From a virus: a stretch of 64,000 bases of DNA. Below the pieces are notes generated by a model, which saw nothing but the letters and a program-made list of their open reading frames with translations, had not been told where the DNA came from and searched no databases. The DNA is taken from the IMG/VR virus record IMGVR_UViG_3300033978_000480, positions 93,527-157,526 of that record; one strand, given 5' to 3'. Of this stretch, positions 10,707-49,532 are shown one piece after another; positions within the stretch are counted from its first letter, which is position 1; the number at the start of each line of letters is the position of its first letter. A program made the position numbers and the translations under genes.

Positions 10707-13700
10707 ATGCCGACCCCTGAACTGCCCCCGTTAAAGCAACCCGATTTTGCTTCTGCGCCGCCGTTAGCGCCCGCAGCGCCAGCGCCTCTTCCGCCGCCAG
10801 CCATGCGCACGTTTGGCGATATTGGATCGATGCGGCAGAACATATTTGAGCAGGCACGTACGAGCGCGCAATCGTTGCGGCCTCTGCAGAACGATCTTTA
10901 TACGCTGCAGCTGCAAGACGTAGATTATTCCGGCCCAGAAAGTTTCACACGGGCTGATCAGAAGAAAGCTGTCCTCTCTAGAGGCACGCTTGCTCGCCGA
11001 TTGCAGGGTACGTGGACGCTCGTTGATAACAAAACCGGCGAGTCGGTTGGGCAGAAGCGCGCTACGATTGCACACGTGCCGTATCTCACAGACTCTGGCA
11101 CATTCGTAAACGGCGGCGTTGAATATACGCTAGCGCATCAGATGCGGTTAAAAGCCGGTGTGTTTACGCGCGAAAAAGACAACGGCGAGATTGAAGCGCA
11201 TGTGAACACGCTGCCCGGTAAAGGCCGCTCGCATCGTTACTTCCTCGACCCCAAAACCGGCGTATTCAAAATCAGCATCGGGCAGGCGCAGATCCCACTC
11301 ATGCCGATGCTCAAAAGCATGGGCGTCTCTGAGCAAGATATTCGCAAGGCGTGGGGCAACGAGATTACCGCCGTCAACATGGAAAAAGGCGACGCGGGCA
11401 CAATGGATAAATTGTATGCCCGCATCGTAAATAAACAGGTGGCGGGAGCTGACGCGCTGGCCAAAGCAAAGGCTGTGGCTGAAGAGTTTGCCAAGACAGA
11501 GTTAGATCCAGAAGTAACTAGACGAACACTCGGCGGCGAGCACAAGAACCTTACGCCTGACACCATTCTGGCGATTACAAAAAAACTTATCGCCGTCAAT
11601 CGTCGCGAAGCCGAATCAGACGACCGCGACAACATGGTGTTTCAGTCAGTGGTCGGTCCAGAAGATTTAATATCAGAACGGTTTACAAAAGATCGGTCTG
11701 CGTTAAATAAATTACTCTGGCGGGCCACAGCGAAGAAGTCTATCGACCACATACCCAGCGGCGTATTCGATAAGGCTATTTCAGCTGCGCTAATCGGCTC
11801 TGGTCTCGGCTCTAGTCTTGAAGAAATCAACCCGGCCGAGATTTTCGACCACCAGACGCGCGTAACCCGCATGGGCGAGGGCGGCATCTCGTCACTAGAC
11901 GCTGTTCCGGCCGAATCGCGTAGTGTGCAGCCGTCGCATCTCGGGTTCATCGATTATCTGCGGACGCCTGAGTCCGGAAAAGTCGGCGTTGATATGCGTT
12001 TTGCTCGTGGCGCAATGAAGGGCGCTGACGGCAAGGTGTATACGCCGGTTGTAAACATGCAGACCGGCGAAACAGAATATAAAACACCGCAAGAGCTGTC
12101 AGACACACCGCTAGTGTTCCCCGGCGAAGAGAACAACAAGTTGCCGGTTGTCGCTGCGCTCGTCAACGGAAAGATGAAGTACGTTGACCGAAAAGAAGCG
12201 CAATACAGCTTGCCCAACATGGACTCGACGTTCTCCAGCCTTACAAACATGGTACCGATGAAGGCCATGATCAAAGGCCAGCGCGTCATCATGGGTTCGC
12301 GCATGTTTACTCAAGCTTTGCCGCTTGTAGGAGCGCAAGCGCCGTTAGTGCAGTCGGCCAAGTTTGATGACCCCAACATGTCGCACGAAGACGAAATGGG
12401 AGAAAAGCTTGGCGCCACCCGGGCAACCACTCGCGCGCAGGTAGTCGATGTAACGGCTGACGGTATTGTGCTGCGCGACAAAGACGGGAACAAGAAAACA
12501 GTCGAGTTGTATAACGAGATGCCGTACAACCGAAAAACGTTCTTGCATCAAACGCCGATGGTAAAACCCGGCGATGTTGTGCAACCCGGGCAGCTGCTGG
12601 CTAAGTCAAACTTCACAGATGATCAGGGTAGCGCGGCACTCGGGCTTAACATGCGTGTAGCTTATGTGCCGTTCCGCGGTAAAAACTACGAAGACGCCAT
12701 AGTGATATCAGAATCGGCGGCAAAACGGTTGACGTCTGAGCACATGTATCAGCACGAAGCAGAGTGGGATGAAAATACACACGTCGGGAAAAAGGCATTC
12801 ACAAGTCTGTTTCCGACAGAGTACGACAAGAAAATGCTGGACAATTTTGACGATCAGGGCGCAATTAAAAAAGGCGCTGTCGTTAATTTTGGCGACCCCC
12901 TTGTTCTCGTCGCTAAGAAAAAAGATACGGTGTACGGCAAGGTGCACCGCGGTCGTGCCGGTAGTTTCACCAACGACACTGTTACGTGGGACCATCACGC
13001 GCCCGGTATTGTAACCGACGTTATGCACACCAAAAAAGGTGTCAGCGTTGTTGTAAAAAATCAGGCGCAGATGGACGTTGGCGATAAGCTCACCGGTCGC
13101 TTTGGTGATAAGGGCGTCATTGCCGATATCATTCCAGACGACCAGATGCCGCAAGACAAAGAAGGCAATCCGTACGAAGTGCTTGTCAGTCCGCTGGGTC
13201 TTATCAGCCGCGTGAATCCGGCGCAGGTTATAGAAGCAGCACTCGGTAAAGTTGCAGCAAAAACAGGCAAACCATTCAAAATCAAAGACTTCGATGACCA
13301 GAATGATTTAATTGAATTTGCGCAGAAAGAACTCGACAAGAACGGGCTTTCAGACACAGAAGATTTAACAGATCCTGAGACTGGCCGAAAAATTCCGGGT
13401 GTTTTAACCGGAACGCGTTTCTTCATGAAACTGCACCATACAAGTGAGTCTAAGGCGCAGGGTCGGGCCATGGGGGCTTATACCGCCGAAGGCACGCCAG
13501 CAAAAGGTGGCAGTGAGGGCGCGAAGCGTGTTGGCATGCTCGACCTCGGTGCTTTGTTATCGCACGGCGCTGGTAAAGTTATCCGCGACGCCAAAATGGT
13601 ACGCGGGCAGGCCAATCCAGAATACTGGTCGCAGTTCATGGCTGGCTATACGCCGCCGCTGCCGAAAGTTCCGCATGTCTATGAAAAATTTGTTGGGCAG

Positions 13701-15143
13701 CTGAAAGCGTCTGGCATTAACGTCGTCCGCAGCGGCACGAAAACAAACGTCATGGCGTTGACTGACAAAGACGTGGATCAGCTTGCCGGTCCAAGAGAGA
13801 TTCAAAACTCTGAGACTGTTGACTGGAAAGGCCGGTTGAAACCAATTGCTGGCGGCCTGTTTGACGAGAGCTTAACAGGTGGTCACGGCGGCAATCGGTG
13901 GGGGAAGATAACCCTTCACGAGCCGATGCCGAATCCAGTCATGGAAGATCCGATCCGGCGTGTTCTCGGGCTAACAGAAAAGAAATTCCGCGGTATCCTC
14001 GCCGGCCAAGACAAGATTAACGATCAAACCGGTCCCAAAGCTATTCAGACGGCGCTGGCCAATATTAATCTGCCGAAAGCGATTGAGCAGGCGCGTGAAG
14101 ATATCAAATCCGGCCGTAAGACACTGCGCGACGCCGCTGTTCGTAGGCTTGGGTTTTTGAAAAGCGCGGAGCAGGCCGGTGTGCATCCGAAGGACTGGAT
14201 GCTGACAAAAGTTCCGGTCCTGCCGCCGCTATTTCGGCCGGTCAGCACCATGGGGCCGAAGAAGTTGCCGCTCGTTGCCGACGCGAACTACTTGTACAAA
14301 GAATTGCTCGACGCCAATGACTCGTTAAAAGAAGCGTCTGGTGCGCTTGCAGAGTACGGCGACGAGCGCCTTGGTGTATATGACGCCATGAAAGGCGTGA
14401 CCGGTCTTGGTGAGCCGCAGCAGCCGAAAAACGCTGAACGCAACGTAAAGGGATTTTTACGGCATATTTTCGGCAACTCGCCCAAGTACGGTACGGTACA
14501 GCGCAAGTTACTCAGCTCGACGGTTGATCTTGTCGGCCGCGCTGTTATTACGCCGAACCCAGACCTAGACATGGACGAGGTTGCCCTGCCAGAAGAGAAG
14601 GCGTGGGATATCTATAAGCCTTTTGTGGTGCGCGATTTAGTTCGCCGCGGCCTTCCCAGAATGCAGGCACTTGATGCCGTAGAGAAAAAAACGAAAGAAG
14701 CGGCAGCCGTGCTTGAGCGGCAAATGAGTTCGCGCCCGATTGTTATTAACCGCGCGCCCGTGCTGCATCGTTACGGCATGATGGCTTTCTACCCGCGGCT
14801 GACCAAGAACAAAGTCATGGAAGTCAACCCGGTTATTACCAAGGGTTTCGGCGCTGACTTTGACGGCGACGCGATGCAATACCACGTACCCAGCACAGAA
14901 GACGCCGCTAAAGAAGCCGTGGACAAAATGCTACCCAGCAAAAATTTATTTGCGGCATCCACGTTTAAAGCGCACTACGTACCGAACAAAGATTATCAAA
15001 CTGGTTTGTACGTCGCGTCCAGTAGAATTAATAACAAAGCAAAACCCCGGGTATTCCGAAACAAGCAGGACGCTATGCAGGCGTACAGGCGTGGTGAAAT
15101 AGAGGTAGACACCCCGGTTCATATTGTGGAAGATACTAAGTAA
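10707..15143 (+). CDS. RNA polymerase beta / beta-prime N-terminal fusion
   Basis: This 1478-residue protein has a Pro-rich head (residues 1-35) and then beta subunit motifs in order: VPYLTDSGTFVNGG (near 129-142), GSRMFTQALPL (near 530), ALGLNMRVAYVPFRGKNYED (near 645-665), GDKLTGRFGDKGV (near 792) and the C-terminal GGSEGAKRVGMLDLGAL (near 935). From about residue 1037 it continues as beta-prime: LKPIAGGLFDE, RPIVINRAPVLHRYG (1343-) and D1384-F-D1386-G-D1388, the magnesium-binding catalytic loop. The usual beta-prime N-terminal zinc-finger Cys are absent (GGHGGNRWG). It ends soon after the catalytic loop; the bridge helix and trigger loop are encoded at 16108. No alpha or omega is seen. It should form the catalytic core of a phage multisubunit polymerase. 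Confidence 0.93.
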   Translation: MPTPELPPLKQPDFASAPPLAPAAPAPLPPPAMRTFGDIGSMRQNIFEQARTSAQSLRPLQNDLYTLQLQDVDYSGPESFTRADQKKAVLSRGTLARRLQGTWTLVDNKTGESVGQKRATIAHVPYLTDSGTFVNGGVEYTLAHQMRLKAGVFTREKDNGEIEAHVNTLPGKGRSHRYFLDPKTGVFKISIGQAQIPLMPMLKSMGVSEQDIRKAWGNEITAVNMEKGDAGTMDKLYARIVNKQVAGADALAKAKAVAEEFAKTELDPEVTRRTLGGEHKNLTPDTILAITKKLIAVNRREAESDDRDNMVFQSVVGPEDLISERFTKDRSALNKLLWRATAKKSIDHIPSGVFDKAISAALIGSGLGSSLEEINPAEIFDHQTRVTRMGEGGISSLDAVPAESRSVQPSHLGFIDYLRTPESGKVGVDMRFARGAMKGADGKVYTPVVNMQTGETEYKTPQELSDTPLVFPGEENNKLPVVAALVNGKMKYVDRKEAQYSLPNMDSTFSSLTNMVPMKAMIKGQRVIMGSRMFTQALPLVGAQAPLVQSAKFDDPNMSHEDEMGEKLGATRATTRAQVVDVTADGIVLRDKDGNKKTVELYNEMPYNRKTFLHQTPMVKPGDVVQPGQLLAKSNFTDDQGSAALGLNMRVAYVPFRGKNYEDAIVISESAAKRLTSEHMYQHEAEWDENTHVGKKAFTSLFPTEYDKKMLDNFDDQGAIKKGAVVNFGDPLVLVAKKKDTVYGKVHRGRAGSFTNDTVTWDHHAPGIVTDVMHTKKGVSVVVKNQAQMDVGDKLTGRFGDKGVIADIIPDDQMPQDKEGNPYEVLVSPLGLISRVNPAQVIEAALGKVAAKTGKPFKIKDFDDQNDLIEFAQKELDKNGLSDTEDLTDPETGRKIPGVLTGTRFFMKLHHTSESKAQGRAMGAYTAEGTPAKGGSEGAKRVGMLDLGALLSHGAGKVIRDAKMVRGQANPEYWSQFMAGYTPPLPKVPHVYEKFVGQLKASGINVVRSGTKTNVMALTDKDVDQLAGPREIQNSETVDWKGRLKPIAGGLFDESLTGGHGGNRWGKITLHEPMPNPVMEDPIRRVLGLTEKKFRGILAGQDKINDQTGPKAIQTALANINLPKAIEQAREDIKSGRKTLRDAAVRRLGFLKSAEQAGVHPKDWMLTKVPVLPPLFRPVSTMGPKKLPLVADANYLYKELLDANDSLKEASGALAEYGDERLGVYDAMKGVTGLGEPQQPKNAERNVKGFLRHIFGNSPKYGTVQRKLLSSTVDLVGRAVITPNPDLDMDEVALPEEKAWDIYKPFVVRDLVRRGLPRMQALDAVEKKTKEAAAVLERQMSSRPIVINRAPVLHRYGMMAFYPRLTKNKVMEVNPVITKGFGADFDGDAMQYHVPSTEDAAKEAVDKMLPSKNLFAASTFKAHYVPNKDYQTGLYVASSRINNKAKPRVFRNKQDAMQAYRRGEIEVDTPVHIVEDTK

Positions 15144-15166
15144 CTTTAGCTCGACACGGAGGTCGT

Positions 15167-15877
15167 ATGTTCACTGTTAACCCCGAACTAATCGCGCTGG
15201 CAAAGGCGCGATTTGAGAAGTCTGCGCTCGTGCCCGGTGCCGCCGTTGATCCGGCTGCGGCTGGGGCTGCACCGCCAGTAGACCCTGCGACCATGGGAGC
15301 AGTGCCGCCGGTTGACCCCGCGATGGCCGGCGCCGCGCCCCCGATGGATCCCGCGGCAATGGGTATGCCTGCTGCGCCTGCGCCCATGCCTGCTGCTCCG
15401 GCGGCGCCGGGTGCGGCCCCCGCATCTGGAATGCAGCAAAAGTTAAAACCAGAACAAATGATGCAGATGCTCGATTACCGGCTTTACAACATGCAGCAGC
15501 AGCTTACCGCGATTATGAACGCGATGGGCGTGCAAGTTCCGCCGGAATCGCTCGTCCTGCCGCCGGGTACTACTGGCGCCCCGCCCGCTGAAACAGCGCT
15601 GCCGGGTGGATCGATGGCTCCTCCGCCGCCGGATCAAAGCGCGCAGGGTGGCATGCAGCCGCCCGGTGGCCCGCTTCCGCCGGGTGGTCCGCTCCCGCCG
15701 AACGCCGCACCGCAAGATCCGACAGCGAAGGTTGCTTGGTGGAACGTAGAAGCGGAAAAGCCGGCGTCGTACATCGGCTATCCTGTGCCGCAAAACCCGA
15801 ATCAACCAACTGACGTGCAGATTAAAGCAAATGCCATATCCGCCATGATTCGGAGTCTTGCGGGCAATGCTGGTTAA
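15167..15877 (+). CDS. Pro/Ala/Gly-rich repetitive protein between polymerase genes
   Basis: A 236-residue protein with CACGGAGG upstream. Residues about 20-90 are low-complexity and repeat the unit 'PPVDPAxxGA' several times. A helical Met/Gln-rich segment (about 92-125, QMMQMLDYRLYNMQQQL) follows, then more Pro/Gly repeats and a short ordered C-terminus. A PPMDPAMAGA unit also occurs in the scaffold-like protein at 25669. It is probably an extended linker or scaffold-like protein; function unknown. Its location inside the polymerase operon suggests a role with the enzyme or its packaging. Confidence 0.55.
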   Translation: MFTVNPELIALAKARFEKSALVPGAAVDPAAAGAAPPVDPATMGAVPPVDPAMAGAAPPMDPAAMGMPAAPAPMPAAPAAPGAAPASGMQQKLKPEQMMQMLDYRLYNMQQQLTAIMNAMGVQVPPESLVLPPGTTGAPPAETALPGGSMAPPPPDQSAQGGMQPPGGPLPPGGPLPPNAAPQDPTAKVAWWNVEAEKPASYIGYPVPQNPNQPTDVQIKANAISAMIRSLAGNAG

Positions 15878-16106
15878 AACGCAGCACCACTTACAGCCAA
15901 CCGAGCAAAAGGCGCACAGCATCGTCGTGGAAGACGACGTTGGTAATCCGATCTTCGTCGCCATTCAAGTCGACGAAGCCATCATTTACTCAACGCCCGG
16001 CGAAAAAGACTTCCACTCAATGCTGCGCGCTCTGGGTATTGAAAAAACGGTGGTTGTAGCCGACTTTAAACCTAAGCCGCTGCAGAATATTGTGCGGCCG
16101 ATGTAA
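15867..16106 (+). CDS. Small hypothetical protein in polymerase operon
   Basis: ATG 15867 overlaps the end of the previous gene and is preceded by GGAG; 79 residues. The sequence alternates strands and helices (HSIVVEDDVGNPIFVAIQVD, IIYSTPGEKDFHSML), giving a compact alpha/beta domain. I cannot match it to omega or another polymerase subunit, although small size and location would suit an accessory subunit. The next gene starts 2 bases after its stop. Confidence 0.5.
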   Translation: MLVKTQHHLQPTEQKAHSIVVEDDVGNPIFVAIQVDEAIIYSTPGEKDFHSMLRALGIEKTVVVADFKPKPLQNIVRPM

Positions 16107-16107
16107 C

Positions 16108-17988
16108 ATGCTTAAAACCACGCTCGGACAAGTCCTGATTAACGAAGCGCTCCCGCCGGAGATGCGCGACTATGACCGCGTGCTCACTAAAAAAAGCATG
16201 GGCGCGCTGGCGACTGAGCTAGCCAAGTCGCATCCCGAAAAATATCGGGAGGCAATGAAAAAACTGCACGACGTCGGCAAAGACGCTGGTTACAGCAGCG
16301 GCGGGCTTTCTTTCAGTTTGAAGCACATTCGCCCGACGCTGGCCGTGAAAGCCGCGCAGATTCGCACGCAAAATGCCATGCGCGAGATTCTGTCCGACAA
16401 GCGTTTAGACAGCAAAACGCGGCAAATTAAACTGCTAGAGTTAGCTGCAAACACGCAAAAAGAGTTGCTAGACAAGGTCTACAAAGAAGCCGAGAGCCAA
16501 GACAATCCGCTGGTGCATCAGATTGCTGGCGCTGGTGTCGGCAATAAATATCAATTGAATTCTTTGATCGGGGCTGACATGCAGTACCTCGATCACCGCG
16601 GCGAGCCGATTCCAATTCCAGTGCTACGCGGCTACGGGCAAGGGTTACGCCCCGTTGAATATTTTGCCGGCGCTTTCGGTACCCGCAAAGGTGTTATCGA
16701 CCTTAAGACGGCCACCGCCGACGCTGGGTTTTACGGTAAACAGCTGGCGCAGATGACGCACAGACTTTTAGTCACCGCGGACGACGATGACGATACAGAC
16801 GAAGAGCGCGCGGCATCTGCGTTAGAACGTGGCTACCCCACAGACGTCGATGACCCAGATAACGAGGGCTCACTGCTCTCTCGCCCAATCGGACCGTATA
16901 AACGCAACACGGTATTAACGCCGAAGATCCTGCGTGACATTAAGGACATGGGCGTTAAAGATATTTTAGTCCGTAGCCCGATTGTAGGGGGTCCAGCAGA
17001 TGGCGGCGTATACGCGAAGGACGTTGGTTATCGCGAAAAAGGCCGTTTACCGCCGGCTGGAGATTATGTGGGCATCGCCGCGGCCCAAGCGTTGTCTGAA
17101 CCTGTCACACAAAGCCAGATCAGCTCGAAACACTCTGGCGGTGTCGGCGGCGCAGGCGCAATCTCTGGTTTTAAAGCGCTCAATGCCCTTGTGCAGGTGC
17201 CGAAAAAATATCCCGACGGCGCCGCGCATGCGCAAGCCGACGGCCGGGTGCAAGAAATCCGTCCGGCTCCGCAGGGCGGCCACTATGTGCAGATTAATGG
17301 GCAAGATCACTATGTTCCGACCGAGAGAGCATTATCAGTTAAAAAAGGCGATGATCTTGAAGCTGGCGACGTACTATCTGACGGTATGCCCAACCCGTCA
17401 GAGATCGTAAAGCACAAAGGCATCGGCGAGGGTCGGCGTTATTTTGTGCAAGCCATGCGGCAGGTAATGGGCAATAGCGGGATTACAGCTCACCGCCGAA
17501 ACATTGAATTATTGTCGCGCGGCCTTGTAAACCATGTCCGGCTGACCGACGAATATGGCGATTACTCGCCGGACGACATTGTGCCGTACTCTTCGTTAGA
17601 GCGAAATTGGACGCCGCGCGACGGAAGCGTGTCAGCGGCGCCGCAGACATTAACCGGGCACTATCTCGAAAAACCGGTTTTACACTATTCAATCGGCACG
17701 AAGATCGGTAAAAACGTGCTAACGAACTTGAACAAATACGGCATTAAAAATATTCAAGCCCACAAAGAACCGCCGCCGTTTCAGCCGGAAATGGTGCGGG
17801 GTATGGCCAATATTTCAAATGACCCGGATTGGATGACGCGCATGCTTGGGTCGTACCAAGAAAAAGGTTTAATGAATAGCGTTCACCGCAACTTATCCAG
17901 CGACGCCGCCGGCAGCAGTTATGTGCCTGCTTTAGCGCAAGGTGAGCAGTTTGGCGTAACCGGCACGACAAGCGGGTGGAAGCCTTGA
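16108..17988 (+). CDS. RNA polymerase beta-prime C-terminal part
   Basis: ATG 16108 gives 626 residues. It continues the beta-prime chain where the fusion gene stops. The bridge helix region is near residues 140-165 (GAGVGNKYQLNSLIGADMQY). The trigger loop is near 183-221 (EYFAGAFGTRKGVIDLKTAT, then ADAGFYGKQLAQM), matching cellular EYF..HGARKG..D.AL.TA.SGY. The late motif VGIAAAQALSEPVTQSQISS (near 320-340) aligns with VGIIAAQSIGEPGTQ. An Asp/Glu-rich insert (about 226-240) is unusual. Together with the 10707 product it supplies a complete active centre. Confidence 0.92.
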   Translation: MLKTTLGQVLINEALPPEMRDYDRVLTKKSMGALATELAKSHPEKYREAMKKLHDVGKDAGYSSGGLSFSLKHIRPTLAVKAAQIRTQNAMREILSDKRLDSKTRQIKLLELAANTQKELLDKVYKEAESQDNPLVHQIAGAGVGNKYQLNSLIGADMQYLDHRGEPIPIPVLRGYGQGLRPVEYFAGAFGTRKGVIDLKTATADAGFYGKQLAQMTHRLLVTADDDDDTDEERAASALERGYPTDVDDPDNEGSLLSRPIGPYKRNTVLTPKILRDIKDMGVKDILVRSPIVGGPADGGVYAKDVGYREKGRLPPAGDYVGIAAAQALSEPVTQSQISSKHSGGVGGAGAISGFKALNALVQVPKKYPDGAAHAQADGRVQEIRPAPQGGHYVQINGQDHYVPTERALSVKKGDDLEAGDVLSDGMPNPSEIVKHKGIGEGRRYFVQAMRQVMGNSGITAHRRNIELLSRGLVNHVRLTDEYGDYSPDDIVPYSSLERNWTPRDGSVSAAPQTLTGHYLEKPVLHYSIGTKIGKNVLTNLNKYGIKNIQAHKEPPPFQPEMVRGMANISNDPDWMTRMLGSYQEKGLMNSVHRNLSSDAAGSSYVPALAQGEQFGVTGTTSGWKP

Positions 17989-18018: not shown

Positions 18019-18038
18019 CGCGGTAAATTATTGCCGTG
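18019..18038 (+). other. Hairpin after the polymerase operon
   Basis: CGCGGTAA (18019-18026) pairs with TTGCCGTG (18031-18038) with G-U wobbles around an ATTA loop. It is followed by TCATTATTTGTG, which is only moderately T-rich. It sits in the 81-base gap between polymerase and the next gene and could be a weak terminator or an mRNA processing hairpin. Confidence 0.35.
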
Positions 18039-18069
18039 TCATTATTTGTGCGCAGCATGGAGGCTGGCC

Positions 18070-20454
18070 GTGTATAACAAAAAAGCTAAAGAGTCGTCCG
18101 TTAAGCATCTGCTCAACGTCATGCGGTCCTATGACCGGACCCAGACTAAGTACGCTGATTTAGGCGGAAAAGGTGATGACACTTCTTTCGAGCAGTCGTT
18201 TAGCAATCTTGCGCACGCCTATCTCCGCGACTCAGCACCCAAGCTCCTTGACCACGAGATCGGTTTCCAGCTTCTCGACCGTAATCGCGAGAACACCAAG
18301 GCTGTCGGTGTATTTGCGTTTAAAGTTGGTTCGATGTGGCTGTACGCGCCCGTGTTCTTTTTAAACGGCGACCTCAAGGGCCACGAACTGCTGTATATCA
18401 AGAATCAGGACATGTTCGTGCCGCTCAAGGAAAACTGGATTAACTATCTGATCAACCGCAAGCCCAACATTCTTGGTAGCGGCGTCGAGCGCAATCTGTC
18501 TAATCTCGGCCAGCGCCAGCCTGACTTTACGCAACTCTCTCGTAGCCCGTCGAAGTTTGGTTCGGCGAAACCCACGCTTAAAGAGATGATGACGGCCGCT
18601 ATGCCGGCGTTCGCCAAGAGCGCCACATTAAATACACAACAAACCTTCGCTGAACTCGGTGAAGCGTTAAACCTGAAAACGTTCTTAAAGCAGGCTGGTT
18701 TAGACGTAATCGGCTCGTTAATTAAAATGTGCCAGTACGCGCCGCAGGTAGCCAACGCAATCGACGAGTTTCACGGTTTAGATATCATCAAAGAAGCAAT
18801 GGCTGCTGCCAAGCTTCGCGAAGCCGCCTCGACTACCAAAGTTGCCAGCGTACTGTCGGAAGCACCTAAGACGCCCGAAGCGGCCAAGGGTCTCAAGGTC
18901 ATCGCGTATGACGCTACAGTTCAGACCAAACTGCCGGCTGGTCATACAGAAGAAGATCAAGAGAAGTTACTGCGCGACGGTGTGCTGATCCAAGACCAAC
19001 GCGACCGCGACAATGTCTCGATCCCTTACAACATTCAGGTCGAGAAAAAGCTGTTCAATCCGACCGAAAGCGGCCTGTACGAGATCCTCGTCAAGCCCGG
19101 CGATATTGAGCGCTGCTACGTGGCTGTGCACCCGCAAGGCGCTGCCAAGCGCGAGAACTTCATTACTGTTGTGCGCACAGACGGCAAGCCTGACTGGCTT
19201 AATACCCGCGCTGACCAAGTGTTTGCGCTGTCGCGCGTTGAGGGCGAAGAGTTTGACAAGTGGTTCGACGCCCTGCCCGAAGCCAACAGCGTGCCCAGCA
19301 AAGACGCGCGGTATATCGCACTTAGCAAGCGCGGTGACTGTACGGCTCCGTTCCGCGTTATTCGCGAGTACGGCAAGTCGGAGCACGACATGCAGTGCTA
19401 CGAAGTGCATCTTGAAGATCACTCGAAGTATCCGCCCAAGGGCAGCATTTGCGGTAGCTGCTATACAGACCCTCTGAACTATGACAAGTGGCGTGACGGT
19501 GTTCGCATTCACCTGAACGGTAAGAAGGGTTCCAGCCTGCGCGCGAGCATGGGCGACATCTTCGTGCCGGAAGGTTTCAAGCTCCTCAAGGTGAGCAAGG
19601 GCGCAGACGATGAGGACACGGTTAAAGATCAGGACGCATGTGGTTGCGGCGAGAGTGATCCGCCGGCCCTGCAGCCCGGCAACCTCGTTGACGCGCAACT
19701 GGCGCTGATGGGCAAGACTGCCGCCTTAACTGTGTACCACAACGGCACAGAGGTCAGCATTAACAAAGAAGCCAGCCTAAGCCCCATCAAGGCGCTGGTC
19801 ACACTTGTTGAGCACCACGGCCTGCGTGAAGAAGCTGCCCGCGAGATCTTAAAGCAAGCGTCTGCCAAGAAGAAGTTTGAGTGCCGCGTGAAGTACGCCG
19901 ATCCGTACGGCGGCGCAATGCTCGTCAACAGCGCCCCGAACGCCCCGACAGATCCGGGCCCGGTTATGGGCGGCGAAAGCATCATGGGCACCAGCGTTCC
20001 GACCCAGCTCGGTATTGACGTTGGTCTGCCTGTGTCTGGCATGAGCGCGAGCAACACAGACCGCAGTGTTTACAACCCCAACACGCAGTTTGATAAGCGA
20101 GACGTGCGGTCTATCGTTGACGCCGCGCAGAGCGGCCAGCGCGAAGTATTTGACACGGCCATGGTGGGCACAATGTTGCGCGCTGTACGTGACGACTCGC
20201 TGGTTGACCGGTATATGGGCGAGCTGACCAAGGGGTTAGACAAACTTGGCCGCATTTTATTTATGTTTTACTGGCACGGCGATCGGTTTGCTGAGCGTTA
20301 TGGCAAGTCCGACATGCCGGAACTAGAAGATTCGCTGCGCAACGCGTTTGAAATGCTCGGCGACGTTATTCTGTTCCTCAAGCAGAAAACAATTGAACCG
20401 TATCCCGAAGAGGCCGCGTCGGATATCGATCTTGGCGCTACCGCTAACGTTTAA
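18070..20454 (+). CDS. Large probable virion protein, unknown family
   Basis: GTG 18070 is chosen because GGAGG lies 7 bases upstream; 794 residues. An N-terminal domain (to about 150) has DLKGHELLYIKNQDMFVPL. A helical middle, a Cys-containing beta region (GSICGSCYTDP near 460; ACGCGESD near 525) and a C-terminal helical domain (FDTAMVGTMLRAVRDDSLVD, LGRILFMFYWHGDRF) follow. Codon use (AAG, CTC, GTC preferred) resembles the capsid and sheath genes rather than its neighbours, which suggests high expression and therefore an abundant virion component. It could be a portal or inner head protein, but no portal motif is recognisable. Confidence 0.6.
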   Translation: MYNKKAKESSVKHLLNVMRSYDRTQTKYADLGGKGDDTSFEQSFSNLAHAYLRDSAPKLLDHEIGFQLLDRNRENTKAVGVFAFKVGSMWLYAPVFFLNGDLKGHELLYIKNQDMFVPLKENWINYLINRKPNILGSGVERNLSNLGQRQPDFTQLSRSPSKFGSAKPTLKEMMTAAMPAFAKSATLNTQQTFAELGEALNLKTFLKQAGLDVIGSLIKMCQYAPQVANAIDEFHGLDIIKEAMAAAKLREAASTTKVASVLSEAPKTPEAAKGLKVIAYDATVQTKLPAGHTEEDQEKLLRDGVLIQDQRDRDNVSIPYNIQVEKKLFNPTESGLYEILVKPGDIERCYVAVHPQGAAKRENFITVVRTDGKPDWLNTRADQVFALSRVEGEEFDKWFDALPEANSVPSKDARYIALSKRGDCTAPFRVIREYGKSEHDMQCYEVHLEDHSKYPPKGSICGSCYTDPLNYDKWRDGVRIHLNGKKGSSLRASMGDIFVPEGFKLLKVSKGADDEDTVKDQDACGCGESDPPALQPGNLVDAQLALMGKTAALTVYHNGTEVSINKEASLSPIKALVTLVEHHGLREEAAREILKQASAKKKFECRVKYADPYGGAMLVNSAPNAPTDPGPVMGGESIMGTSVPTQLGIDVGLPVSGMSASNTDRSVYNPNTQFDKRDVRSIVDAAQSGQREVFDTAMVGTMLRAVRDDSLVDRYMGELTKGLDKLGRILFMFYWHGDRFAERYGKSDMPELEDSLRNAFEMLGDVILFLKQKTIEPYPEEAASDIDLGATANV

Positions 20455-24155: not shown

Positions 24156-25622
24156 ATGAGCATGATCAAAGTTATTCAACCGCACTCGCAGGATTTCAGC
24201 GAGCCGGTCGCCGCGCTAATTAAGATATCTAGTCGCGGCATCATTGGCGCCGACAAGCAAGACCTTGTAAAACGCGCCGGCGCTGAATTTGCGCACAAAC
24301 TTGAAAACATCAAGTTTGCCAAAGATGAGATCCCGGTTCACATGATCGCCATCGGGGCTACGGAAGATTACGGCCCCAACCGCAACGGCGACGGGTTTAG
24401 CCGCGAATGCTGCCAAAACTATCACAACACATTTGAAAAGTACGCCCGTTTTTACCGGGATCACGCCAATAAAAATCCGGCAAAAAGTTTCGGCATTGTA
24501 AAAGCCAGCGCCTACCACGAGCCGATGCGCCGTATTGAGCTAGTTGTAGCTTTAAACGGCTCTAAAGAAGCCGCTGATCGTAACGGTGGTTTAATTGCCG
24601 ATAAGGAAATGGAAAAGCTGGCAAACGACAAAGACATCGCCGTTTCCATGGCCTGCAAGATCCCGTTTGATAAGTGCTCTTCCTGCGGCAACACGGCCAA
24701 GACACGGGCCGAATACTGTGACGCTGTAGAAAACGGCGGGCACTGCAAGGCTGGCGGTTTACGGCGCAATATCGGGCGCGTTCTAGACGACGGCCACGTA
24801 CTGCACGCCGATAACCCCAATCCTAGCTTTTTTGATATTTCGCACGTTTTCAGGCCTGCAGACCGCATTGCGTATGTTTTCGGCAAAGTCGCCGAACTGC
24901 AAAAGGCGGCTTCTGCGCACTGTATTTCCGGGGTAGAGCTGGCCGAGCAAATGGGGATTACTGCCCCGATTGCCTTTGACGCTGGCGGTACCCCTAGTCG
25001 ACGGGTGCAAACACAATTAGAGGCGTTAACACAATTAGCGCAGGCTGAGAAGTTAGCTGGTGACGGCGCTGCGTGGGCCCAGACCGCTCTCGCGTCTAAT
25101 CCAGTTGTTCAACCGGCTATTGATGTAAATTGCTGCCCGTCTGTTAAAATGTCGGAAGTGTTGCGCGGATTAACAGACGCCGGTGTAATCCTGCCTTTGC
25201 GGGACTTTCTGGCGTTGACAGTTAAATCAGCCAATGCGAAACTTGTTAGTGCAGTGGCCTACGCGCTGCCTAACATGTTCTCTAAAGTTGCAAACGATCC
25301 TGATGTCGTTGGGTTACTTGAGAACAACGTGTACTATCCAGCAAATGCCGCGTCGCCAAGCGTGCGGGTATGGGCTGAAAAAGTAGCACACACACATAGC
25401 GTATTACCGAGCAATGTTGAAAAGCGGGCTTATTTAGCCGCTCTTCGCAACGCTCAACCCAGTGAGTTTTCAACAGATAAACAAGCAAGTGGAGAAGCAG
25501 AAACAGCTCTTGCGCAACATTACGCTTTGTATAAGATCGCTGCTTACGCCACAATCTGCGAGAAATATGGAAATCATTGGTTGACAACAAACCACTGTGT
25601 ATTGCAAAATTATGTCACATGA
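24156..25622 (+). CDS. Head maturation (prohead) serine protease with zinc-like Cys cluster
   Basis: A 488-residue protein beginning 2 bases after the previous stop. The N-terminal 230 residues fit herpesvirus-assemblin/HK97-type prohead proteases: RFYRDH103ANKN holds the catalytic His and IAVS164MACKIPF the catalytic Ser strand. Directly after the Ser strand lies a Cys cluster (CSSCGN, YCDAVENGGHC), probably zinc-binding. Residues about 245-488 form an additional helical region of unknown role that may be a self-cleaved tail. The gene precedes a scaffold-like protein and the major capsid protein, the usual order. It would trim scaffold and internal proteins during head maturation. Confidence 0.75.
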   Translation: MSMIKVIQPHSQDFSEPVAALIKISSRGIIGADKQDLVKRAGAEFAHKLENIKFAKDEIPVHMIAIGATEDYGPNRNGDGFSRECCQNYHNTFEKYARFYRDHANKNPAKSFGIVKASAYHEPMRRIELVVALNGSKEAADRNGGLIADKEMEKLANDKDIAVSMACKIPFDKCSSCGNTAKTRAEYCDAVENGGHCKAGGLRRNIGRVLDDGHVLHADNPNPSFFDISHVFRPADRIAYVFGKVAELQKAASAHCISGVELAEQMGITAPIAFDAGGTPSRRVQTQLEALTQLAQAEKLAGDGAAWAQTALASNPVVQPAIDVNCCPSVKMSEVLRGLTDAGVILPLRDFLALTVKSANAKLVSAVAYALPNMFSKVANDPDVVGLLENNVYYPANAASPSVRVWAEKVAHTHSVLPSNVEKRAYLAALRNAQPSEFSTDKQASGEAETALAQHYALYKIAAYATICEKYGNHWLTTNHCVLQNYVT

Positions 25623-28134: not shown

Positions 28135-28173
28135 TCTATCCCTAACTAATTCAGGAACATGGAGGTTCCCAAA

Positions 28174-29100
28174 ATGCCCACTCAGCAAGAAATCCAACTG
28201 CTTAACGAGACGCTTTTTGAGCAGCTTGATACCCCCGGCATGCAAAAGCAGGCCATTGATGCGGTTAACGATTTCACGCGCACCAAGATGCGTGAAGACG
28301 GGTTCTACCGGCGGATTATGCCGCCGCTGACTATCACCAACGACGAGCTGGACCGTCAGGTTGACACTGACAAGCCCGTCAAGGTTGTGGACAAGGAGCC
28401 CGATTCCCCGGCGGCTGTGTCGCTTCCGTTCGCGACGCTCCCGATCAACTTCTACATCCGTGGCCCGCGCTACCGCGTCATGTTTGACCGGATCGTGTCG
28501 CCCCGCGCTGTGAAGGACGTCGACGAGCTGCGTACGTATGTCATCGACATCCGTCAGGTTCTGTCGGACAACATGATCAAGGACATGCTGGCTGAAGAGG
28601 ACGGCAAGTTTATTGCCGCCTTCAACGCCGTCCTGCCGACTGCTGGTGTTGCTAACGTCGCTAGCGGCGTTGTGCAGTACGAGGAGATCAGCGGTGGTAT
28701 CACCCGCGAAACGCTGGTGGACGCCCTGAAGGTCATGCCGCGCACGCCGTCGCACTTTGAGGTTGAAACTTGCCTCGTGAATAACATCACGATCAAGGAA
28801 CTCCTCAAGTTCGGCCGCGACGAAATGGGCGGTGACTTCTCGCAGGACATCATCAAGAACGGTTGGGCGGAAACCAACTTCCTCAACTGCCGCTGGATCG
28901 TCACGATCAAGCGCGACCTCGTTCCCGATGATGCCATGTTCATGTTCGCCTCGCCGAAGTTCATCGGCAAGAACTACGAGCTGGAGCCCACCACGATGTA
29001 CATCCGTCGTGAGGCGTTCATGCTTGAGTACTTTGCGTATCAAACATCCGGCGGCTCGTTCGGCCATACGAACGGTCTCGCTCGGGTTGACTTCAAGTAA
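28174..29100 (+). CDS. Major capsid protein (HK97-fold candidate)
   Basis: ATG 28174 is selected because GGAGG (28161-28165) lies 8 bases upstream; 308 residues. The head order (protease, acidic scaffold, decoration, this gene) and the strongest codon bias in the window point to the major capsid protein. The N-terminus is helical (NETLFEQLDTPGMQKQAIDA), and then DFTRTKMREDGFYRRIMPPL resembles the N-terminal region of myovirus capsid proteins. The C-terminal FGRDEMGGDF, TIKRDLVPDDAMFMFASPKF and EAFMLEYFAYQTSGGSF look like the P-domain end of HK97-type folds. No cleavage site is obvious in the first 50 residues. Confidence 0.75.
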   Translation: MPTQQEIQLLNETLFEQLDTPGMQKQAIDAVNDFTRTKMREDGFYRRIMPPLTITNDELDRQVDTDKPVKVVDKEPDSPAAVSLPFATLPINFYIRGPRYRVMFDRIVSPRAVKDVDELRTYVIDIRQVLSDNMIKDMLAEEDGKFIAAFNAVLPTAGVANVASGVVQYEEISGGITRETLVDALKVMPRTPSHFEVETCLVNNITIKELLKFGRDEMGGDFSQDIIKNGWAETNFLNCRWIVTIKRDLVPDDAMFMFASPKFIGKNYELEPTTMYIRREAFMLEYFAYQTSGGSFGHTNGLARVDFK

Positions 29101-33184: not shown

Positions 33185-36100
33185 ATGTCGAGCTACGTAA
33201 AACCCCAAGTTCTCGTTTTCCAAGAATTTCGTATTGTTCCCACGGAGATCACCGAGCCGCTGCGCGCCCACATTGCTGGCCCGCACGCCGTTCTCCACCG
33301 CTATAGCGACGTCGATGAGAAACCCGATTGTCTTTTAGGCGCTTATGATCGCTTAAATGACACATGCTACACGTGGCCGCAGCGTCTCGCCGGTTCGCAA
33401 GTCGACCGCGATTACGTAAAGCTGTACATCGACGACGCAATGCTGCGTTACTACAACCACACGATGGGCGATGGCAACACCATCATCACATCCGTAGTGG
33501 GCAAAGCAAACTGGATCCAGTCGAGCAACCTGTCGTTTAAGACGAACACGTCGGCGTATCCGCGCTCGTCCGCATTCTACGACCGTGACGTTCAGCTTGG
33601 CGACGTTGTGAAGCTGCGTATCGTAAGCGCCGACAACAACTGCAACGAGACGGTACTTGAAACGTATGTCACTGGTTTTGCCAGCGACCTCGTTCCGTCG
33701 CGTATTCTCCCCGCTTACGAAGACGTCGCCAACGCGTCGTCGTATTCCGCCGCGTCTAGCACGGGTGTAGACGTAACTGCGACGCAGATTGCCGGCACTG
33801 ATAATAACGTAGCCGTAGCTGTACTAGATACAACTACAGCCGGCGCTACAATCTATAACGGACTCGTTGACGGCTATGTTAACGAAGAGTACGTTGTTGA
33901 AGTTATCAAGAGCACAATTTCGGGCTGCAACGCTGCTCGTCTGCGTGTCACATCTGCGAGCGGCACAGACGATCAGGCTGAAATCACGCCGAATACGATG
34001 GATACGGGCGACCTGTCCAACGTCACATTCATCGGCACGCGCGGCCTCTCCGTTCGGTTCACAACGACCGGCACCGACGACTTTGTGGTCGGTCAGCAGT
34101 GGCGCTTTGTTGTCCGTCAGACATTTGAGCCTGTCACGGCTACTTCTACCGCTGACGGTACTCTTGTAACAGAGACGTCCGTAACTGGTGTTGCTGGTGA
34201 GGTTGACATTCTCGGCGCTTATGCTGGTGCCAAGAACGACGTCTACATCATCGAGTGCACCAAGGGCGGTGTCTGGGCTCAGCTGCCCGAGATCATGATC
34301 CGCACGGCGAAGGGCTTGGACTTCTCTGGTCCGACCGAAGTAACCGGCGACGGCGAAGGTAGTGACTCTGTTGCTGTGCCGATCGGTACTAACGGTGTTA
34401 AGGTGAAGTTCCTTGGCGCAACAAACGCGTCTGGCGACGCTGTTGCCGGTCTGCGCAAGGGCGACAAGTGGTACATCACTGTTAACTCCAGCCAAGCTGG
34501 TCCGGTCAAGAAGCTCATCCTTCGCGACGACCTGCCCACCAGCATGCTTGCCAAAGACGGCCTGCCTGTCGATAAGGTCGGCGTGGTTAATGTCAGCGCG
34601 TCTGGCACTGGCTACACGTCGGCCCCGACTGTTACTTTCTCGGCGGCTCCGCTCGGCGGCGTAACAGCCACTGGTACTGCTGTGCTGGGAACTGGCGCGA
34701 ACGCCGCCAAGGTTGTTAGCGTGACGATCACGAATCGTGGCTCTGGCTATGTAACCGCCCCGACTGTCACGTTTAGCGGTGGCGCAGGAACCGGCGCCGC
34801 AGCTACAGCTGCGCTTATCAGCGGCGAGGATATGGATCTGGAGTTGTTCATCAAGGACAACATTCAGGTATCCAAGAATCGCGTTGGTTTTGCGCCGATG
34901 ACTAACTACTTCCTCGAAGACACGCAGATCTGCGTGCAGGAAGGCATCGTTGCTTACCACCCCGAGTGGACAAGCGCCGGCGCTGAGCAGCCGCTGAATG
35001 TTATGAGCGGCAAGGTTTATGTTGAATACCGCGAGTTCCTCTCGGAGCTGGCTGATCAAGTTAACTCGATCAGCGACGTGGCTGACCTCGATCAAATCAA
35101 GGGTCAGTTAGATCCTGATAACCCGATGAAGTGGGGCGTCTACAAAGCGCTTTCGAACAGCAACGGCACTGTAGTAAAGTACACAGCCGTAGTTGAGCCG
35201 GGCGATCTGGACAGCTGGGTGCAGGTGCTGGAGCGCATCAAGGGTCGCGACGACATGTATAACCTTGTCCCGCTGACGTTTGATCGTCGTGTTCACAATC
35301 TGTGGGCTGCTCATATCGGCGCTGAGTCGAATGAATACGCCAACAATTGGAAGGCCGGCTTCTTCGCGCTCAAGGCTGTTCCGGTTGTGAAGGTTTCTGG
35401 CGAAGGCGTGCCGGTTAACGGCGTGCTGGGCACAGAGGTCACCACACCGGTATTAGCGACACTCGCGGACGATCCGAATGCCACGAACACGCAGTACACA
35501 AAGCTGACTGTTACATCTGGCAACGGCTACTTCATCACGAATGACGTGCGCCCCGGCGACATCGTTCGTTACAACTTCTCGGTCGACGGTTTCGGCGACG
35601 AGCAGTACGAAGAGTACGTTGTTGATCAGGTCCTGTCCGAGTCGACCCTGCTGCTTTACTCCGGCGCTGACGCCGCTGTAACAGTTCCGCAGCGCGTCGA
35701 GATCTCCCACAACCGTAACCGCAACGAAATTGCGGAAGACATCGCCACAGCGGCTGGTGGTCTTTCCAATCGTCGCGTGTGCGCCGTGTGGCCGGATCAG
35801 GTAGGCGAAGCTGGCGTATCGCAGCCCGGTTATTACCTTGCTGCAGCGCTCGCTGGTCTTGTCAGCGGCGTGGTACCCCATCAGCCCCTCACGAACGTAG
35901 AGGTCGCCGGTTTCGACGACTACACACGGTCGTACAAGTACTTCAACGAAACGCAGCTGAACCGTATGGCTGAAGCTGGTACGTGGATTGTGACAGAAGA
36001 CCGTGACGGAACACCGCACACGCGGCACGCCGTCACAACGGATAACCTCGACCTGAATCGTCGGGAAGAGATGATCCGCCGCAATGTTGACAGCATGTCC

Positions 36101-36364
36101 TACTTGTTCCTGCGTCGCCTGCGTCCGTTCATCGGCCGCACCAACGCGCAAGAGGGCATGGTTCGTCGGCTTCGGTTCGAAGTCACTGCCATCATCGACT
36201 TCCTCAAGGCCAATGGCTTCACCGAGGAACTGGGTTCGCAGTTAATCGACGGTGAAATCAGCCGGCTGCAGATCCACCCGCTGTTAAAGGACCGCATTGA
36301 GATTGTTCTTAATCTCACTGTTCCGGCGCCGCTCAACAACATTGAGCTGCACTTAGTGGTCTGA
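33185..36364 (+). CDS. Tail sheath protein, enlarged by beta-domain insertions
   Basis: A 1059-residue protein, much longer than T4 gp18 (about 659). The N-terminal part (LVFQEFRIVPTEITEPLRAH) and the C-terminal domain (SMSYLFLRRLRPFIGRTNAQ, EVTAIIDFLKANG, LQIHPLLKDRIEIVLNLTVP) match the conserved ends of contractile sheaths. The middle contains two related beta-domains of about 95 residues (near 215-310 and 340-430). Two short repeats follow near 467-545 (SGTGYTSAPTVTFSAAP and RGSGYVTAPTVTFSGG). These are probably surface-exposed. Codon bias and the strong ribosome site indicate high expression. A sheath proves a contractile tail. Confidence 0.85.
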   Translation: MSSYVKPQVLVFQEFRIVPTEITEPLRAHIAGPHAVLHRYSDVDEKPDCLLGAYDRLNDTCYTWPQRLAGSQVDRDYVKLYIDDAMLRYYNHTMGDGNTIITSVVGKANWIQSSNLSFKTNTSAYPRSSAFYDRDVQLGDVVKLRIVSADNNCNETVLETYVTGFASDLVPSRILPAYEDVANASSYSAASSTGVDVTATQIAGTDNNVAVAVLDTTTAGATIYNGLVDGYVNEEYVVEVIKSTISGCNAARLRVTSASGTDDQAEITPNTMDTGDLSNVTFIGTRGLSVRFTTTGTDDFVVGQQWRFVVRQTFEPVTATSTADGTLVTETSVTGVAGEVDILGAYAGAKNDVYIIECTKGGVWAQLPEIMIRTAKGLDFSGPTEVTGDGEGSDSVAVPIGTNGVKVKFLGATNASGDAVAGLRKGDKWYITVNSSQAGPVKKLILRDDLPTSMLAKDGLPVDKVGVVNVSASGTGYTSAPTVTFSAAPLGGVTATGTAVLGTGANAAKVVSVTITNRGSGYVTAPTVTFSGGAGTGAAATAALISGEDMDLELFIKDNIQVSKNRVGFAPMTNYFLEDTQICVQEGIVAYHPEWTSAGAEQPLNVMSGKVYVEYREFLSELADQVNSISDVADLDQIKGQLDPDNPMKWGVYKALSNSNGTVVKYTAVVEPGDLDSWVQVLERIKGRDDMYNLVPLTFDRRVHNLWAAHIGAESNEYANNWKAGFFALKAVPVVKVSGEGVPVNGVLGTEVTTPVLATLADDPNATNTQYTKLTVTSGNGYFITNDVRPGDIVRYNFSVDGFGDEQYEEYVVDQVLSESTLLLYSGADAAVTVPQRVEISHNRNRNEIAEDIATAAGGLSNRRVCAVWPDQVGEAGVSQPGYYLAAALAGLVSGVVPHQPLTNVEVAGFDDYTRSYKYFNETQLNRMAEAGTWIVTEDRDGTPHTRHAVTTDNLDLNRREEMIRRNVDSMSYLFLRRLRPFIGRTNAQEGMVRRLRFEVTAIIDFLKANGFTEELGSQLIDGEISRLQIHPLLKDRIEIVLNLTVPAPLNNIELHLVV

Positions 36365-48711: not shown

Positions 48712-49532
48712 TCATGCAATCACCAACACCAAAACCGGCTGGCATGCCATCTATTCTGGGTGACGTCCCGGCGCCATTCTCAGCGAAACGTCCTGCAGGC
48801 GTGGGTGAAGACTTTGACACCCTTTATCCGCAGTGGCAGACAACGCGCACGCCAGAAAATAACACCGCAATTTTAAAGACATTACAGCCTGTCATAGACA
48901 CGGCTGTAATGAGCTATGCCGGGCAAGCAGCCAGCCCGACGATCCGGTCACGCGCGAAGCTCATGGCGCTCAAAGCGCTTGATACGTACGACCCGCAACG
49001 CGGCAACGTCCGCACGCATCTTTTATCGCAGATGCAGAGCTTACGGCGGCTATCTGCGCAGACACAGAATATTATTTCTATTCCAGAACAAGTTAGCTTA
49101 GATTTTTCGCGGCTGAGTGAGAACGAGAACGAGCTGCGCGATCAGCTAGGGCGAGACCCTGCCGATGACGAACTAGCCGACGCAACAGGTCTATCTGTTC
49201 GCCGTATTCGAAAAATACGCGCATTTAATCAGCCGGTCGCAGAAGGCATGACAACTCGTGATGTCGGCCCGGATGATAATTATGGCGGCGACTCGGCCAG
49301 TAACATACCCGGCAGCACCCGCTCGGCTGATGCGTGGTTCAAATTTGTATACGAAGATTTGAGCCCCGTTGACCGTCTGATTGCCGATATGACGCTAGGA
49401 CGCAATGGCCGAAAAAAGACAAGCACGCAAGACATAGCGCGGCGTTTAAACATTACCCCCGGGGCAGTAAGTCAACGCGCGGCAAAAATTCAAACAATGC
49501 TCGATAAGCAGTACACGCACGGCGGATTTTAA
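48678..49532 (+). CDS. Sigma-factor-like protein encoded in the baseplate operon
   Basis: A 284-residue protein. ATG 48678 has GAAGG 6 bases upstream and overlaps the hub gene by 34 bases; a second ATG at 48714 has a weaker site. Residues about 65-135 resemble sigma region 2 (KLMALKALDTYDPQRGNVRT, HLLSQMQSLRRL, NIISIPEQV). Residues about 148-180 match region 3 (LRDQLGRDPADDELADATGL). Residues about 226-280 match region 4 with a helix-turn-helix (LSPVDRLIADMTLG, TSTQDIARRLNITPGAVSQR). A role as specificity subunit of the phage polymerase encoded at 10.7-18 kb is inferred. Its place among baseplate genes may mean late expression or packaging. Confidence 0.75.
   Translation: MARRTTQEESLIMQSPTPKPAGMPSILGDVPAPFSAKRPAGVGEDFDTLYPQWQTTRTPENNTAILKTLQPVIDTAVMSYAGQAASPTIRSRAKLMALKALDTYDPQRGNVRTHLLSQMQSLRRLSAQTQNIISIPEQVSLDFSRLSENENELRDQLGRDPADDELADATGLSVRRIRKIRAFNQPVAEGMTTRDVGPDDNYGGDSASNIPGSTRSADAWFKFVYEDLSPVDRLIADMTLGRNGRKKTSTQDIARRLNITPGAVSQRAAKIQTMLDKQYTHGGF

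Follow-up and report, generated by a model that had tools for sequence, protein, structure and literature searches.

A widespread layout of phage RNA polymerase: one chain uniting beta with the N-terminal part of beta', and a second chain with the remainder of beta'

Multisubunit RNA polymerases (RNAPs) encoded by phages have been described in several layouts. In the virion RNAP (vRNAP) and the non-virion RNAP (nvRNAP) of phiKZ-type phages, beta' is split after the barrel at a site coinciding with the cyanobacterial split, and these enzymes are reported to lack alpha, omega and recognisable initiation factors (PMC7598289); phiKZ gp68 is structurally homologous to sigma (PMC13282480). The crAss/YonO-like RNAPs hold both barrels in one chain without a detectable match to cellular beta/beta' profiles (PMC7481178), and phage P23-45 carries a virion RNAP which is homologous to cellular RNAPs and fused to the tape measure protein (PMC10770324). 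Among published sets of cell-like phage RNAPs, mReC (Weinheimer and Aylward 2020, PMC7481178) comes nearest, which was selected by the motif NADxDGD in beta' and in which all eight detected capsid proteins are of the Gp23 type (PF07068). Here, we describe an RNAP locus in a stretch of 64,000 nucleotides (the window), i.e. bases 93,527-157,526 of the possibly incomplete 157,526-bp IMG/VR record IMGVR_UViG_3300033978_000480. One gene encodes a chain of 1478 amino acids (aa) uniting beta with the N-terminal part of beta' (beta'N), another a 626-aa protein with the remaining C-part of beta'. Judged from sequence comparison, the beta-beta'N fusion is a widespread layout which is apparently undescribed in open-access papers; its novelty rests on the fusion.

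Pfam analysis of the 1478-aa chain revealed beta domains 3 and 6 (PF00562, E 9.6e-52) followed by beta' domains 1 and 2 (PF00623, E 8.1e-25; domain 1 below the cut-off). A PDB sequence search covered beta from the N-terminal lobe to the C-terminus (best match 2.2e-68) and beta' as far as residue 544 of the E. coli subunit. Beta occupies residues ~1-1005 as one stretch (residues 3-1004), followed by the junction at ~1005-1030 and beta'N at ~1030-1478. The 626-aa protein resumes at the next conserved segment after the end of the long chain and matched mycobacterial beta' with 1.6e-32 in the PDB sequence search. Its listed open reading frame (ORF) opens at TTG 16090, but ATG 16108 is the likely start, aligned with the starts of the relatives. 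A previous reading, made from the letters and their ORFs without database searches (the sequence-only reading), had proposed that beta motifs run straight into beta' in one product and that bridge helix and trigger loop lie on a separate protein two genes downstream. Both proposals were borne out, with Pfam beta and beta' domains matched in the long chain and a beta' domain in the second protein. The long product was also thought to end after DFDGD; the motif does lie near the end, but 90 further residues follow. The split of beta' is no frameshift artefact, because the two intervening genes recur in close relatives.

The features of a two-barrel RNAP core, namely the DFDGD site, the beta lysine pair, the bridge helix and the trigger-loop His, are all present in the window (Table 1). 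The trigger-loop His342 (17131-17133) is invariant in the family alignment, and the Asp triad, the beta lysines, the NRAP Arg and this His are retained across the family down to ~31% identity. R1349 of the NRAP motif is presumably the equivalent of E. coli beta' R425. Among the aligned fused rows, the beta motif GDKLTGRFGDK has a single exception, L150, with an ORF broken at this place. A model of the fused chain (residues 361-1478) reached a mean predicted local distance difference test (pLDDT) of 83.9 and a predicted template modelling score (pTM) of 0.74, and its beta half was superimposed on bacterial beta with Z 37.6 and a root-mean-square deviation (rmsd) of 3.5 over 585 residues. Two points weigh against this picture: the Asn of cellular NADFDGD is Gly in the window and N, A or T in relatives, and the structure search covered the beta half only, since beta chains fill its match list, so that it excludes no family. 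Nevertheless, the two chains very probably form an active RNAP core free of alpha and omega.

Table 1. Features of the RNAP locus, its surroundings and the sigma factor gene (window positions)
Feature	Position	Strand	Basis or remark
Beta + beta' N-part fusion, 1478 aa	10707..15143	+	Pfam, PDB sequence search, family alignment
Beta catalytic motif GDKLTGRFGDK, lysines K794 and K802	13080..13112	+	Kept in aligned fused rows except L150
R1349 of INRAP	14751..14753	+	Family alignment
Metal-binding GADFDGD (D1384, D1386, D1388)	14850..14870	+	Motif alignment
Pro/Ala-rich protein, 236 aa, between the subunit genes	15167..15877	+	Recurs in close relatives; no family match
Protein of 82 aa (listed TTG start)	15858..16106	+	Recurs in close relatives; no family match
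Beta' C-part, 626 aa	16108..17988	+	Pfam beta' domain 5 (PF04998, E 8.6e-24), PDB sequence search
Bridge helix region, C-part residues ~183-216, GTRKGVIDLKTATADAGF	16654..16755	+	Alignment to mycobacterial beta'
Trigger loop region, C-part residues ~320-352	17065..17163	+	Mycobacterial beta' and family alignment
Weak homolog of Arash gp218 (annotated structural protein)	18031..20454	+	tblastn 1.5e-4
Homolog of Arash gp222 (annotated structural protein)	24156..25622	+	tblastn 2.8e-32
Homolog of Arash gp226 (annotated major capsid protein)	28159..29100	+	tblastn 2.6e-27
Tail sheath-like protein, homolog of Arash gp236	33185..36364	+	phrog_279, tblastn 1.5e-33
Divergent sigma-70-type factor, 284 aa, regions 2/3/4, no Cys	48678..49532	+	tblastn, Pfam, PHROGs, fold search
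Baseplate wedge-like protein, neighbour of the sigma gene	50490..52202	+	phrog_6, 3.3e-15

The distribution of the layout was determined with 91 loci, obtained by a long-chain scan (45 IMG/VR loci) and a profile scan (best 80 of 160 encoding stretches). The beta-beta' junction lies within one ORF in 90 of them, and the exception stops at the contig end. A separate beta' C-part was seen in 79 loci, with none inside the examined stretch in the other 12; L044, L045 and L095 carry part of beta or beta' on another ORF. Additionally, a scan with the C-part, which is blind to the fusion, yielded 80 loci, many of them on contigs shared with the other scans. A beta-beta' ORF was present in 64, including L165 and L181 in which beta'N itself is broken; the remaining 16 comprise four loci with everything in one ORF, seven in which beta'N has an ORF of its own and beta lies out of reach, and five with neither in reach.

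Among named isolates, the fusion with a separate C-part was found in Salmonella phage Arash (OQ632216, gp206/gp216) and in Vibrio phages D69, D181 and D148 (identity 31% and 23-25%), with beta additionally interrupted in the fusions of D181 and D148 (for D148 from the match row only). Their records leave the fusion undescribed, the Arash protein being annotated as 'RNAP subunit beta' and those of the Vibrio phages as hypothetical, and no description of a beta-beta'N fusion in phages was found in the open-access literature. The arrangement thus exists in related phages, Arash and D69, but is not described there. The sequence-only reading had regarded fusion plus split as a layout different from those known; this holds for the fusion, but not for the split of beta', which is already known from phiKZ-type phages and cyanobacteria.

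Like the phiKZ/AR9-type enzymes, the polymerase of the window is phage-encoded, lacks alpha and omega, and has beta' broken after the catalytic barrel (phiKZ site from PMC7598289). It differs in that beta is whole and fused to beta'N, in the presence of one RNAP set and in a recognisable sigma factor, whereas phiKZ-type phages have a split beta and two RNAP sets. In contrast to the crAss/YonO-like RNAPs, it strongly matches beta and beta' profiles. P23-45 likewise has a phage virion RNAP of cellular kinship; it differs by the tape measure fusion. Bacterial rpoB-rpoC fusions also join beta to beta'. Those of epsilon-proteobacteria and Wolbachia include the whole of beta', and alpha, omega and the zinc ribbon are kept; among the phage loci, only L171-L174 resemble such a full fusion.

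The nearest phage neighbours of the fused clade in our tree are Carin-5 (Cobetia) and GN1 (Yersinia), with cell-like beta and beta' on separate, unfused genes, and Rhizobium phage RHph_TM30 and Vibrio phage 1.031.O, with a cell-like beta' whose beta was not found. All four of these non-fused named phages matched the Gp23-type capsid profile PF07068 (one below the cut-off), as compared to none of 25 fused records. The NADxDGD rule used to select mReC would pass over the window, because it has GADFDGD; some relatives have N at this position, and fused relatives with NADFDGD could be within the published mReC set.

Neither alpha (PF01193) nor omega (PF01192) was found in any of 20 records, mostly IMG/VR contigs that may be incomplete, while the positive controls were detected in 13 of 14 and 14 of 14 genomes, respectively. 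The N-terminal zinc ribbon, which beta' of E. coli shares with that of Carin-5, RHph_TM30 and Vibrio 1.031.O, is absent from the window and from the single-chain relative L172 in the alignment; the 1478-aa chain is entirely devoid of cysteine. The absence of alpha, omega and zinc-finger cysteines had already been noticed in the sequence-only reading. A second zinc site in beta'C, which we take to be that of cellular beta', is lost in the clade of the window and retained in Arash, D69 and L045 (family alignment). The core would consist of beta fused to the N-half of beta' with the Mg-binding DFDGD, and of a separate beta' C-part with bridge helix and trigger loop; the fusion would keep both active-site barrels in one polypeptide and may replace the alpha2/omega assembly scaffold.

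A single PF04997 match was obtained in the record of the window, with the reservation that this record may be incomplete, and a single polymerase per record in 33 of 33 records, five of which show two or three PF04997 matches within one long ORF. Hence, PF04997 searches of the window's own record and of these 33 records gave no second RNAP set, although a very divergent set could escape. A scan of host genome contigs with the fused chain revealed no relative; eight stretches fitted a pattern and none was confirmed.

The window also encodes a divergent sigma-70-type factor, which was overlooked in the sequence-only reading. Pfam sigma region 2 gave no match in the record of the window, nor in 11 of 14 related records; a reading of these results as absence of sigma was overturned by region 4 matches in 9 of 20 records, which are all below the cut-off but led to an ortholog family of ~270 aa. 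The protein of the window is 66% identical to an ortholog (tblastn), matches Sigma70_r3 above and region 4 below the Pfam cut-off, and hits the PHROGs sigma factor family phrog_351 with E 1.1e-9. All 50 listed matches of a fold search were RNAP-sigma entries. Region 2 was recognised by fold alone (sigma domain 2, Z 9.9, rmsd 2.6 over 87 residues), and region 4 was superimposed with rmsd 2.2 over 68 residues. Several observations speak against a firm structural assignment: the model is weak (mean pLDDT 67.9, pTM 0.37), whole-chain superpositions are poor (TM 0.20-0.29, rmsd ~22-25), and for the tool used, Z below ~13 may reflect a mere arrangement of helices and is inconclusive for helical proteins.

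The polymerase lies among virion genes, as the sequence-only reading had stated and taken as a hint of packaging, with homologs of capsid, structural, tail sheath and baseplate proteins in the window (Table 1). Packaging gains further support from composition, as both polymerase chains and the sigma factor (1478 + 626 + 284 aa) are entirely free of cysteine. For the two chains, 24.0 cysteines would be expected from 52 chosen other window genes (1.14%), or 27.6 from the gene calls of the whole record (1.31%), which are rough and in at least one case, at the capsid gene, placed on the wrong strand. No cysteine is present in 36 of 53 non-redundant two-chain polymerases, and some of the nonzero counts stem from N-terminal ORF extensions; Arash-like polymerases retain four cysteines in beta'C. 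The virion RNAP of phage N4 shares this property, with no cysteine in 3500 residues. It is an unrelated single-subunit enzyme of T7-like fold. Its lack of cysteine has been connected with the need to pass the tail or the periplasm (PMC3715699, PMC3915230).

Other cysteine counts weaken this argument for packaging. The four listed virion RNAP subunits of phiKZ contain 16 cysteines in 2614 aa, so that absence of cysteine fails as a general rule for virion RNAPs. The major capsid protein of N4 is cysteine-free as well, E. coli beta is itself poor in cysteine (0.52%), the Arash polymerase has five cysteines and single-chain forms four to nine, and six other window proteins of at least 250 aa are devoid of cysteine. 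Cysteine content is therefore neither required for nor proof of packaging, because phiKZ has cysteines and the N4 capsid protein has none. The portal gene gave a mixed result. Of 24 listed loci, 12 matched a portal profile on the upstream side of the polymerase, and five loci had supplied this profile; the portal is close upstream in Arash-like and single-chain loci and ~3-8 kb away in L045, L046, L097, L102 and L168. The profile found no portal near the polymerase in the other 12 loci, including the window, L012 and L017, which also counts against packaging, and the portal was rejected as a constant neighbour of the polymerase. The absence of a portal near the polymerase in the window and its close relatives lowered our estimate of ejection from slightly above even to even: the chance that the polymerase is carried in the virion and ejected may be put at one in two.

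The strongest competing explanation is that the same enzyme is made during infection and not packaged. It would then serve middle or late genes together with the phage sigma factor, host RNAP would serve the early genes, and the location among virion genes would be a matter of operon structure. In its favour, a single polymerase was found per record, so that an early/late pair of the phiKZ kind is missing. Cysteines and one zinc site are retained in some relatives, virion and non-virion subunits of phiKZ both contain cysteines, and no portal lies near the polymerase in the clade of the window. Such an enzyme is a real but less probable possibility, as the near-total cysteine depletion of chains and sigma resembles that of the ejected N4 vRNAP, virion genes surround the polymerase, and several relatives, among them the Arash-like and single-chain ones, have a portal upstream. 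Because chains and sigma are cysteine-free and encoded in the virion block, the likeliest use would be as an ejected enzyme which begins transcription at once. As a whole, we lean, with somewhat better than even confidence, towards an alpha- and omega-free two-chain core which has its own sigma and is ejected from the virion. A broader version, namely a packaged and ejected, often cysteine-free holoenzyme throughout the family, whose relatives record the breaking up of a single chain with inteins at break-prone sites, is more tentative and falls a little short of even.

Several other proteins of the virion block are cysteine-free (41230-45795, 46257-47084, 3214-4254, 9821-10702, 20848-21795 and 23173-24153), one of them with 1521 aa; perhaps they are tape measure or ejected proteins. 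An ORF running off the end of the window (62795-64000) has the opposite composition, with 26 cysteines in 402 aa (6.5%) as compared to a genome average of ~1.3%.

The association of sigma factor and polymerase was analyzed in both directions. Of 30 records with the polymerase, 28 matched the sigma profile; since eight of the 28 had supplied profile rows, the independent count is 20 of 22. The misses are one 27-kb fragment and the 171.6-kb record of L097. None of five control records (Carin-5, GN1, RHph_TM30, Vibrio 1.031.O and one bacterial-looking record) was matched. A sigma scan blind to the polymerase yielded 51 loci, and the polymerase was present in 33 of 33 contigs of at least 100 kb (18 shorter ones were left out); 27 of these contigs had previously been found through the polymerase, and the six new ones all carry it. 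Apart from the miss in L097, the meaning of these counts is limited by the fact that sigma is a core gene of the phage group, like the capsid genes, and that co-occurrence is no proof of functional pairing.

Arash (gp10, gp196) and D69 hold two sigma factors each, an ortholog of the window type (gp10 in Arash) and a more canonical one. Both phages resemble the window in having this ortholog and differ by the extra sigma factor, the conserved second zinc site and the portal close upstream.

The sigma factor of the window could also act on the host enzyme, in which case the phage core would either rely on a different specificity factor or do without one. The sigma factors encoded by jumbo phages that lack an RNAP are regarded as host-directed (PMC7824862, PMC7598289), and the second sigma factors of Arash and D69 (annotated or matched) fit such a role. 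This alternative is unlikely, as sigma co-occurs with polymerases only ~31% identical to each other, is lacking in the five controls and is free of cysteine like the core. We consider it probable that the phage core works with the sigma factor of the window; the divergent sigma would set promoter choice, and its likely contact site, the clamp helices, seems to be retained in the fused chain.

To trace the origin of the layout, a tree was calculated from 37 sequences and 1661 columns and rooted on four bacterial sequences. Of 41 rows chosen, L162, L178, L165 and L044 were dropped, and forms with separate genes for the beta N-part were not included. The alignment profile was built from fused members and may favour a fused clade; cellular sampling was small. 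All fused forms grouped together (ultrafast bootstrap (UFBoot) 98, FastTree 0.96), and the node uniting all phage forms reached UFBoot 80 and FastTree 0.52. Within the fused clade, the single-chain forms L172-L174 (2077-2141 aa) branch first (UFBoot 100 for L172-L174), and L171, an insert-bearing form of 2498 aa, groups with all split forms (UFBoot 96, FastTree 0.94). In L171-L174, beta, beta'N and beta'C lie in one ORF, with a portal upstream in L172-L174 and terminase downstream in L171; sigma was found in the records of L171 and L174. Splitting may have occurred more than once, because the split forms are weakly supported as one group (UFBoot 55, FastTree 0.41).

Further breaks and inserts were observed in the family. 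In L177, L178, L179, L181, L182 and L187 a break inside beta'N leaves the DFDGD barrel on its own ORF of 383-419 aa; L181, a neighbour of Arash in the tree, and L165 both have a broken beta'N. The first ~480 beta profile positions are detached from the rest in 7 of 12 polymerase-bearing records (G048, G052, G056, G059 and G062-G064). In at least five records (G052, G059, G062, G063 and G064) the beta N-part is encoded by two ORFs of 219-250 aa, which in some cases lie at a distance of tens of kb or on the opposite strand, and the remainder of beta is fused to beta'. In D181 and D148, beta is interrupted beside a homing endonuclease gene. In-frame inserts occur at the DFDGD site, in the trigger loop and at several beta sites (L006, L023, L044, L045, L046, L097, L171 and others), and six of seven tested inserts match intein, LAGLIDADG homing-endonuclease or Hint domains (one of the six below the cut-off); the intein-like insert at DFDGD of L044 is spread over two ORFs. 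Taken together, this suggests that fusion came first and was followed by later breaks at insert-prone sites.

Alternatively, the split beta' might have been inherited from a cyanobacterium-like donor (rpoC1/rpoC2) instead of arising by fission within the phage family. The cyanobacterial gamma and beta'2 subunits are likewise separated between catalytic barrel and bridge helix, with gamma unfused to beta, so that the break lies in the same inter-domain stretch in cyanobacteria, phiKZ-type phages and the window; moreover, the tree contained no cyanobacteria. According to the alignment ranges, the break falls at a different residue: gamma extends ~60-70 residues past the end of the phage chain, and beta'2 starts inside the phage C-part, its residue 8 corresponding to position 20 of the C-part profile. 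As unsplit forms are basal in the fused clade and relatives are broken further at other places, a cyanobacterial donor appears improbable. That the locus is a decayed relic, either a structural protein or a polymerase without activity, is very improbable: the Asn-to-Gly exchange in NADFDGD, other trigger-loop substitutions and the broken reading frames in L044, L045, L095 and L150 would agree with it, but the catalytic residues named above persist down to ~31% identity and the junction is almost always spanned by one ORF.

No convincing promoter motif was found near the polymerase, and a 313-bp gap upstream (5944-6256) was rejected as promoter region as it looks like a coding stretch. A GC hairpin followed by TTTTTTTAGCTAT(CAG) was observed at positions 33795, 72599, 73673 and 77742 (+) of G000, outside the window, and in L271-L350, G002 and G060. 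The 16-mer TTTTTAGCTAT occurs in five copies in G000, where 0.09 would be expected, and one copy lacks a strong hairpin. It was found at a minimum of 136 IMG/VR sites; the upstream 40 nt of 134 sites fold at -15.5 kcal/mol as compared to -7.9 kcal/mol after shuffling. Among 21 displayed contigs of at least 120 kb with the 16-mer, nine were known polymerase carriers, and all 12 tested carry the polymerase; below 120 kb it was present in none of ten tested, shorter known carriers having been excluded beforehand. No enrichment of the 16-mer was seen in 154 kb of Arash sequence (stretches overlapping), in two single-chain records or in 100 kb of Carin-5. Hairpin and 16-mer may represent a terminator, together with a conserved element downstream of it, that this polymerase uses.

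Other genes of the window include one for a protein with a 2H phosphoesterase domain (PF22547) and DUF5661 (1544-2944), the listed ORF of which overlaps a tRNA-Asn gene (1529-1604), and one with an endolysin-like match (5110-5943, phrog_1493).

The more informative parts of this locus and its family had all escaped the sequence-only reading: the accompanying sigma factor, the lack of cysteine, and the relatives that have a single chain or additional breaks. If active, the enzyme would be a cell-like RNAP that works in the absence of alpha and omega, unites both barrels in a single chain and has a recognisable sigma factor, and the question of a minimal holoenzyme would become approachable. The occurrence of unsplit, two-piece and further broken forms within one family makes it testable, through phylogeny and the reassembly of chains, whether the splits of phage RNAPs are ancient or arose by fission. 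Finally, virion proteomics and in vitro transcription are within practical reach, since members such as Arash and Vibrio phage D69 have been isolated.

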